Position numbers and translations under genes: made by a program. A stretch of 64,000 nucleotides of DNA from an uncultured Saccharospirillaceae bacterium (GTDB lineage Bacteria > Bacteroidota > Bacteroidia > Flavobacteriales_D > CAJJDF01), in NCBI GenBank assembly GCA_950054195.1, contig CATLPG010000012.1, positions 1-64,000 of the forward strand, in the 5' to 3' direction. A model generated the notes under the pieces. It did no database searches, was not told where the DNA came from, and saw only the letters and a program-made list of their open reading frames with translations. Of the stretch, positions 20,620 through 22,534 are shown one piece after another. How positions within the stretch are numbered: position 1 is the stretch's first letter; every line of letters begins with the position of its first letter.

Positions 20620-21285
20620 TCATGCAATGACCATTTCTGGGATTTCGCCTTCAACGATGAGTTTACCTGCTGTAGCTTGTTTAATTTCTTCAACGGTAAC
20701 ACCAGGAGCATGCTCTAATAATACAAAAGCCTGCTTTTCATGATCTACTTCTAAAACGGCTAGGTTTGTTACAATTTTAGTTACACACCCAACACCAGTT
20801 AATGGCAATGTACATGCTTCCAAAAGTTTAGAGTCACCTCTTTTATTGGTGTGCATCATAGCTACAATAATATTCTCAGCAGAAGCTACTAAATCCATTG
20901 CACCTCCCATTCCTTTTACCATTTTTCCTGGGATTTTCCAATTTGCAATATCTCCATTTTGAGCTACCTCCATTGCTCCTAAAACAGTAAGTTGTACATG
21001 CTGTCCTCTAATCATCGAAAAGCTTGTTGCAGAATCGAAAAAAGATGCTCCAGGCAATGCAGTAATGGTTTGCTTACCGGCATTAATTAAATCAGCATCT
21101 TCTGTGCCTGCTTTTGGAAAAGGTCCCATGCCTAAAATGCCATTTTCAGATTGGAATTCAACAGAAATTCCATTGGGAATATAATTCGCAACAAGTGTAG
21201 GTATACCAATTCCAAGGTTCACATACCATCCGTCTTGTAATTCTTGTGCAATTCGTTTTGCAATGCCGTTTTTATCTAAACTCAT
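20620..21285 (-). CDS. scoB: 3-oxoacid CoA-transferase subunit B
   Basis: A 221-residue beta subunit of a family I CoA-transferase, moving CoA between succinyl-CoA (or acetyl-CoA) and acetoacetate. The catalytic glutamate is visible in SENGILG (Glu47), preceded by VNLGIGIPTLVANYIP. PGASFFDSATSFSMIRG and GAMEVAQNGDIANW are family motifs. The partner subunit A is at 21839-22534, unusually separated from this gene by a 553-base insertion carrying a four-helix-bundle gene. Both subunits look intact, so the enzyme should still be active if both are transcribed. Confidence 0.93.
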   Translation of the reverse strand: MSLDKNGIAKRIAQELQDGWYVNLGIGIPTLVANYIPNGISVEFQSENGILGMGPFPKAGTEDADLINAGKQTITALPGASFFDSATSFSMIRGQHVQLTVLGAMEVAQNGDIANWKIPGKMVKGMGGAMDLVASAENIIVAMMHTNKRGDSKLLEACTLPLTGVGCVTKIVTNLAVLEVDHEKQAFVLLEHAPGVTVEEIKQATAGKLIVEGEIPEMVIA

Positions 21286-21287
21286 AG

Positions 21288-21300
21288 TTAATGTAACAAT
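21288..21300. repeat. 13-bp direct repeat, copy 1
   Basis: TTAATGTAACAAT lies just outside the scoB start. An identical copy at 21735-21747 lies on the other side of the four-helix-bundle gene, so the pair brackets it. A near-match in reverse orientation is at 21800-21812 (one mismatch). Confidence 0.75.
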
Positions 21301-21386
21301 TGATCAATTTTAATAATGTATCAATGGTTTAATTAATAAATACTGATGAAATTAAACACATCAACAAGACTAATGTAGTAATTAAA

Positions 21387-21731
21387 TTACATCTTTCTTT
21401 TACTACTACTTAGTATCTTGTATATAATTAAACTAATTTCTTCGGCCATTAATTTAAGATCTTTATCAAAGGCATATGACATACTGTGTTCGCAAAGGGT
21501 AAGCCAGTACTTTGTTTCTTCTATTTCCTTAGCTGAAATTTTCACTTTATGAATAAAATCAGCTTTACTTTCTGCATTTTGAGCTTCATGCATATTTGCT
21601 CCTACTGATGTAGCAGACCTTAAAAGTTGTCTAGCTATTATATGTTTTTTGTCTTGTTCTAGTTGTTCTGTATACCTTATAATTGCTAATGAAAATTGTA
21701 TGGTTTTATTTAATATGATATTGTCTTTCAT
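21387..21731 (-). CDS. Four-helix bundle protein (23S rRNA intervening-sequence/S23 type)
   Basis: A 114-residue all-helical protein. The motifs ARQLLRSATSVGANMHEAQ, then DFIHKVKISAKEIEETKYWL are diagnostic of the family first seen in intervening sequences of 23S rRNA genes; the accessory protein Avd of diversity-generating retroelements has the same fold. The family is basic and may bind nucleic acid, but its cellular role is unknown. It sits between the two CoA-transferase subunit genes, flanked by AT-rich repeats including an exact 13-bp direct repeat. This points to insertion as a small mobile or repeat-associated cassette. Confidence 0.9.
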   Translation of the reverse strand: MKDNIILNKTIQFSLAIIRYTEQLEQDKKHIIARQLLRSATSVGANMHEAQNAESKADFIHKVKISAKEIEETKYWLTLCEHSMSYAFDKDLKLMAEEISLIIYKILSSSKRKM

Positions 21732-21734
21732 ATA

Positions 21735-21747
21735 TTAATGTAACAAT
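21735..21747. repeat. 13-bp direct repeat, copy 2
   Basis: Second exact copy of TTAATGTAACAAT, directly upstream of the four-helix-bundle ATG. The distance between copies is 447 bases, which contains the whole gene. This could be a target-site duplication or two units of a dispersed repeat. Confidence 0.75.
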
Positions 21748-21789
21748 GAATTAATGAGTTAATAAAGCAATTGAGTAGAGCATTAATTA

Positions 21790-21812
21790 GTAGCAAAACA
21801 TTGCTACATTAA
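21790..21812. repeat. Hairpin and inverted partial repeat upstream of the four-helix-bundle gene
   Basis: GTAGCAA (21790-21796) and TTGCTAC (21801-21807) form a perfect 7-bp stem with a 4-base loop. ATTGCTACATTAA (21800-21812) is the reverse complement of the 13-bp direct repeat with one mismatch. Further ATTAATACATT/ACATTGATTAATTAA words follow up to the scoA stop. The whole block looks like repeat-element remains. Confidence 0.6.
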
Positions 21813-21838
21813 TACATTAGAACATTGATTAATTAAAA

Positions 21839-22534
21839 CTACGAAGTAGTTAACTGTTCAATTCTTTTCTCGTAGTTAGTGCCCTTAAATATGCGTTGTA
21901 TAAATATTCCAGGCGTGTGTATTTGTCCTGGGTCAAGCTCTCCTGGTTCAACTAACTCTTCAACTTCTGCAATGGTAATTTTACCTGCCATAGCCATTAA
22001 TGGATTGAAGTTTCTTGCAGTGCCTTTAAAAATCAAGTTTCCTGCTGTGTCTCCTTTCCATGCTTTAACAATTGCAAAGTCTGCATCAAAAGCATGTTCA
22101 AGAATATGTGGTTTTCCATTAAATACACGAACTTCTTTTCCTTCTGCTACTTCGGTTCCATAACCTGCTGGAGTAAAAAAAGCTGGAATTCCAGCACCAG
22201 CAGCTCTACAACGTTCTGCTAAAGTACCTTGTGGTATTAAATCTACTTCAAGTTCGGCATTGAGCATTTGGCGTTCAAACTCTTCGTTTTCGCCAACATA
22301 AGAAGAAATCATTTTTTTGATTTGACGCTTTTGCAATAACAATCCCAACCCAAAATCATCAACACCAGCATTGTTTGAGATACAAGTTAAGTTGATAATG
22401 TTTGTTTCTGTTAAAGCGGTAATGCAGTTTTCTGGAATACCACATAAACCAAAACCACCTAACATGAGTGTCATGCCACTTTCAATTCCTTTTATTGCTT
22501 CTTGTGCGTTTGCTACTACTTTATTTATTGCCAT
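21839..22534 (-). CDS. scoA: 3-oxoacid CoA-transferase subunit A
   Basis: A 231-residue alpha subunit. [16 protein letters not shown] gives the glycine-rich oxyanion loop of family I CoA-transferases; [29 protein letters not shown] and [16 protein letters not shown] are further family motifs. It begins 9 bases after the PBP1A stop and so is likely read from the ricT-gldH-PBP transcript. Normally scoB follows immediately; here an insertion of 553 bases comes first. Confidence 0.93.

Follow-up and report, generated by a model that had tools for sequence, protein, structure and literature searches.

The locus described here raises the question of why the genes for the two subunits of 3-oxoacid CoA-transferase are separated by a third gene. 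In the window, that is, the whole stretch of 64,000 nucleotides that was analysed, scoA (subunit A; positions 21839–22534; TIGR02429, 8e-79) and scoB (subunit B; 20620–21285; TIGR02428, 5e-97) are 553 nt apart (21286–21838). This gap is occupied by an insert containing a gene for a four-helix-bundle protein of the 23S rRNA-IVP/S23 family (21387–21731; 114 amino acids, pI 9.0; PF05635, 1.3e-20; TIGR02436, 7e-23), and all three genes are on the minus strand. These coordinates and family matches confirm the split of the two subunit genes that had been described in an earlier note on this DNA. In comparison with its relatives, the scoA product ends in ..EQLTTS instead of the usual ..EQRTVRQ. The four-helix-bundle protein matches a solved protein by sequence (PDB 2rld, 4.6e-20), the deposition of which consists of five chains, and its gene shows a dN/dS of 0.32/1.18 relative to the orthologue in genome G007. 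The only sizeable ORF in the insert encodes this protein, and neither a transposase nor a recombinase was detected among the ORFs of the insert using Pfam. Pfam assigned PF05635 alone, with no indication of a tyrosine (Y1) transposase, and recognised no catalytic domain in the protein. In our view, the rRNA intervening-sequence (IVS) element occurs here in an operon-borne form, in which the gene and two opposed arrays of 7- or 8-nt units move as one unit, and we assign this explanation a probability of roughly 0.7.

Comparison with related genomes revealed both empty and filled sites. Among the 37 scoA/scoB junctions that were readable, 30 are 39 nt or shorter, and the gene is present in three (G000, G002 and G007). 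Uninterrupted junctions, the check proposed in the earlier note, are thus found in most relatives, in agreement with its view that a small cassette was inserted in the sense of the operon. Gene-less arrays or remnants are present at several junctions (L161, L182, L188 and L193). Because the insert is common to G000, G002 and G007, with 64% identity between G000 and G007, it may be old. The genome containing the window has two further PF05635 genes, both in operon sense. One is located between sdhA and sdhB (L001), and the other between a fadJ-like enoyl-CoA hydratase/3-hydroxyacyl-CoA dehydrogenase gene and a fadA-like acetyl-CoA acyltransferase gene (L002). The sdhA/sdhB junction is filled in G000 but empty in G001 (14 nt) and G002 (6 nt), and therefore this insertion varies within one genus; in G004, the same junction contains an array without the gene. 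Five more sites, mostly within operons, were found in G001, which belongs to the same genus. The existence of empty sites for other copies of the gene family supports the suggestion that the insert belongs to a mobile type of element. No insertion was caught between near-identical strains, which we count against our explanation. In G001, a membrane-protein gene weakly matching the LA_3751/LA_3752 glycosyltransferase family (L012:2386–4226) lies between scoA and scoB, so that two unrelated genes have interrupted this junction within one genus.

On both sides of the window gene are arrays built from a degenerate unit of 8 nt, NNNAATGT, and from its complement. In sense orientation, the 5' and 3' flanks are 107 and 101 nt in length, respectively. 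The 5' flank contains a forward array of four units of NNNAATGT (ATCAATGT TCTAATGT ATTAATGT AGCAATGT; 21798–21829, minus strand), in which AATGT recurs at exact 8-nt steps (flank positions 13, 21, 29 and 37; lag-8 z 4.1), and an opposing array with CATT at 8-nt steps (21734–21757, minus strand). These two arrays are predicted to pair in a stem of 17–18 bp (z -4.4), which is a better description of this region than the 7-bp hairpin reported previously. The opposing array in the 3' flank (ACATTATT .. TTGATCAA TTGTTACATTAA; 21288–21327, minus strand; lag-8 z 2.7) corresponds in type to the reverse complement of the forward array in the 5' flank, and 12 inverted 7-mers are common to both flanks, compared with 3.4 in shuffles (p 0.009). 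An RNA stem formed by the whole insert is not supported by the predicted fold, which is not unusually stable (z -1.4) and in which the two outer ends are unpaired.

The earlier note had regarded a 13-mer, TTAATGTAACAAT, as the direct repeat at the ends of the element. Two exact copies (21288–21300 and 21735–21747) do flank the gene, and an exact 13-mer common to both flanks occurs in 0.45% of shuffles. Near-copies with one and two mismatches are located at 21800–21812 (minus strand) and 21313–21325, respectively. The number of near-matches over the 64 kb is at the chance level (9 versus 8.4 expected), and four of the nine fall within the 553-nt insert, where 0.07 would be expected (P about 1e-6). 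However, the copy at 21735 is located approximately 90 nt within the insert, just upstream of the start codon, and not at its end. Moreover, neither of the other two copies of the gene in the genome is accompanied by the 13-mer. Both exact copies are in phase with the 8-nt period of longer arrays, being contained in the opposing arrays of the 3' and 5' flanks. Therefore, the 13-mers represent pieces of these reverse arrays and not a target-site duplication, which was not found at the insert, and it is highly improbable that the cassette has terminal direct repeats of 13 bp or target-site duplications as its boundaries. The absence of the 13-mer elsewhere, which the earlier note would have taken as a refutation, is misleading, because each copy of the gene has its own array of 7- to 8-nt units, oppositely oriented in the two flanks. 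The other copies in the genome are accompanied by other units, such as TATTAGA TTATTAGA in one flank and TCTAAAA TCTAAAA in the opposite flank.

Arrays of this kind are a general feature of the gene. Of 100 genomes from the order, 68 contain PF05635 genes, and a clear array with a period of 7 or 8 is present on at least one side in 120 of 178 loci, approximately one-third of the loci being without a clear array at the threshold used. The flanks of 105 order-wide loci show an excess of identity at lags of 7, 14 and 21, a smaller excess at 8 and none at 5, 6 and 9 to 13. The excess at lag 7 is 1.34/1.49 (z about 26), and the lag-7 value is 1.47 beside the gene versus 1.08 in intergenic regions away from it. 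The array units differ from locus to locus. The two ends of the same locus tend to match each other: the number of 7-mers shared by the 5' array and the reverse-complemented 3' array is 7.9 within a locus, compared with 1.3 between loci and 2.4 in shuffles, and the consensus identity of the two ends is 0.71 versus 0.43 when loci are shuffled. Because control genes also share more inverted 7-mers than expected (3.9), claims of matching ends at single loci are weaker than the pooled result. The presence of stop codons in all frames was considered as a cause of the heptad consensus WNNTKAR and was rejected, the effect being not significant relative to column permutation.

A scan of 84,980 named species yielded 80 more loci, 73 of which were readable. 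In this second set, which was selected by similarity to one protein and is biased, one or both flanks contain a clear array at 52 of the 73 readable loci. The loci belong to Bacteroidota, Ignavibacteria, a Wirthbacterium (CPR), Anaerolineae, Gallionellaceae and archaea, and no match to the gene was detected among phage records. The archaeal arrays (L272 and L273, from Methanomicrobiales and ANME-1) have an 8-nt period, with strongly matching ends in L272. Copies on cyanobacterial plasmids contain near-perfect arrays of AGTAGGG and CCCTACT. On two such plasmids (L316:1286–1965 and L318:1126–1901), the gene is located between cas6 and cas4 and is accompanied by long heptad arrays. The known co-occurrence of the four-helix-bundle family with cas genes may be caused by insertion of the element.

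It could be argued that these arrays are passive simple-sequence repeats, generated by polymerase slippage in tolerated intergenic regions, and that the gene is merely a frequent neighbour. In many prokaryotes, no long simple repeat is more common than the heptanucleotide type (Mrazek 2007, as cited in PMC4679880), and G022 is full of heptad arrays. However, slippage can generate neither reverse-complementary flanks nor a unit that tracks the protein lineage, and in random 20-kb samples, arrays were found solely in gene-carrying genomes (28 versus 0), with 23 of the 28 derived from G022. We therefore regard this possibility as quite improbable. In two regions of G022 (L195 and L196; 40 kb), 23 heptad arrays lie between genes with no four-helix-bundle gene alongside, a density that extrapolates to about a thousand or more per genome.

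The linkage between protein lineage and array unit is evident among closely related copies. For proteins with at least 75% identity at different sites, the overlap of array 6-mers is 0.367, compared with 0.108 for distant pairs. Six loci (L243, L244, L245, L253, L266 and L281) encode proteins with 85–97% identity and have several different neighbours, and all contain the TACAATA unit. Close proteins with a shared unit were also found at fadJ|fadA (L238/L240) and sdhA|sdhB (L282/L296). As several close pairs have a dS above 1, the array units outlast synonymous sites. In G036, three paralogues (76–96% identity) all have ATTTGTC, and the remaining four carry different units or lack a clear array. 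The sharing of a unit by close relatives, both between sites and inside a single genome, leads us to conclude that the gene and its arrays have spread together. The gene-less array at the scoA/scoB junction of G036 shares 34–35 of 56 7-mers with two members of this trio and 20 with the third, compared with about 7.5 in other genomes. Such resemblance of a gene-less array to the resident elements is clear in G036, weak in G004 and G011, and absent in G057 and G003.

The insertion sites are not evenly distributed. Neighbouring genes were called using simple ORF rules, and we take them to be fadJ, fadA, sdh, suf and hmg genes from reading their sequences. In 171 loci, the gene is found at fadJ|fadA in 37, fadA|acyl-CoA dehydrogenase in 11, sdhA|sdhB in 10 and sufB|sufC in 6; the corresponding numbers in the order-wide sample of 105 are 13, 2, 6 and 6. 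Where the neighbours are co-directional, sense copies outnumber antisense copies by 80 to 18 (p 1.7e-10), and the ratio in the second set is 61:0. This strong recurrence at a few junctions and the sense orientation, together with purifying selection on the protein (median dN/dS 0.06), would also be expected if the gene were a non-mobile host gene. In that case, the protein would serve its operons (beta-oxidation, succinate dehydrogenase, CoA-transferase and Suf, many of them encoding components of a single complex), the arrays would be mRNA processing or regulatory sites, and the scattered presence of the gene would reflect losses. However, near-identical proteins occur at unrelated sites, and many copies are found at other locations, among them cas operons and a 23S rRNA gene. 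Furthermore, the fadJ|fadA label changes at least 23 times for 35 loci on the protein tree (shuffled mean 33), although such trees are weak because the proteins are short. We therefore consider a host gene unlikely. Since the site labels change often and yet less than at random, both reinsertion and descent are at work.

The gene-plus-array element thus has to be compared with known systems. The PF05635 and TIGR02436 matches bear out the kinship with rRNA IVSs proposed in the earlier note: the insert encodes an S23p/IVP four-helix-bundle protein. Because it is located between scoA and scoB and not inside an rRNA gene, it is a variant rather than a member of the rRNA IVSs. The 23S rRNA IVSs with an S23p/IVP gene found in Coxiella, Leptospira and Brucella resemble the operon copies in that they encode the same protein family, in sense with the transcript, and in that the gene is enclosed by complementary ends, which in the operon copies would be the opposed arrays. 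The Coxiella IVS contains three GACAGAT heptamers before the S23p gene, at its 5' end, and has complementary ends and is excised by RNase III (PMC4990558). In Azospirillum (L320), the gene lies inside the 23S rRNA (RF02541, 2540 bits) between opposed heptads, with heptamers at both ends. The operon copies differ from these IVSs in lying between protein genes and in having an array unit that varies by locus. In addition, the Coxiella IVS gene is decaying, whereas the gene of the operon copies is under strong purifying selection. According to an old idea, the IVS is a mobile element whose ORF served mobility (PMC4990558). With their strong purifying selection and many sites, the operon copies look like the active form of this element.

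In RAYT/REP-REPIN systems, a chromosomal gene encoding a tyrosine transposase (RAYT) is flanked by opposed short repeats, and gene-less copies are present elsewhere. The element described here similarly combines a gene, opposed short repeats and gene-less copies, but has no known catalytic domain, and its repeats are 7- to 8-nt tandem arrays. Avd of the diversity-generating retroelements is a homologous pentameric four-helix bundle (PMC10053308), and weak NF033474 matches were obtained in cyanobacterial members. Unlike avd, the window gene has no reverse transcriptase, template repeat or variable repeat in its neighbourhood, and the single RVT_1 gene of the genome is on another contig. The TAACTGA and other heptamer arrays of Beggiatoaceae, Cyanobacteria and Bacteroidetes (MacGregor 2015, PMC4679880) and the cyanobacterial STRRs are likewise scattered intergenic tandem heptamers suspected of being mobile. 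In the relevant parts of that source, they are described as free repeats, without a link to a four-helix-bundle gene or to mirror-image pairs. We found no paper linking the four-helix-bundle gene with mirror-image heptads in the open-licence PubMed Central literature.

These results suggest a widespread, largely undescribed mobile element, the gene-plus-array unit of which is found at intergenic positions in many bacteria and also within one rRNA gene. The unit consists of two opposed degenerate 7- or 8-nt arrays and, between them, a gene encoding a small, basic protein of the four-helix-bundle type. The protein, a pentamer in solved relatives, may recognise the array of its own lineage as DNA or RNA. 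Because it has no known catalytic domain, it would probably help the element to move with enzymes supplied by the cell. By analogy with rRNA IVSs, the opposed arrays in the transcript may form stems cleavable by RNase III, in which case insertion between co-transcribed genes would do little harm. Gene-less arrays may be non-autonomous derivatives or remnants. More tentatively, and with somewhat less than even odds, there may be a transposase-free class of mobile elements across bacteria and archaea, in which a non-catalytic pentameric nucleic-acid-binding protein recognises a lineage-specific mirror-image heptad or octad array, with gene-less satellites, and of which rRNA IVSs and many orphan heptad repeats are forms or debris. 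If true, this would bring together the rRNA IVSs and the S23 protein, the free-standing 'four helix bundle protein' genes of Bacteroidota and Cyanobacteria, and the dominance of heptamers between bacterial genes. It would also give the protein a testable job, namely reading a lineage-specific 7- to 8-nt array, and explain the frequent interruption of conserved enzyme operons by the four-helix-bundle gene.

Several copies in the family to which the window's genome belongs (L021, L023, L028, L029 and L010) have internal stop codons or frame breaks and represent decaying elements. Three four-helix-bundle genes are located within a few kilobases in G011 (L072) and two in G007 (L063), as if they were neighbouring insertions.
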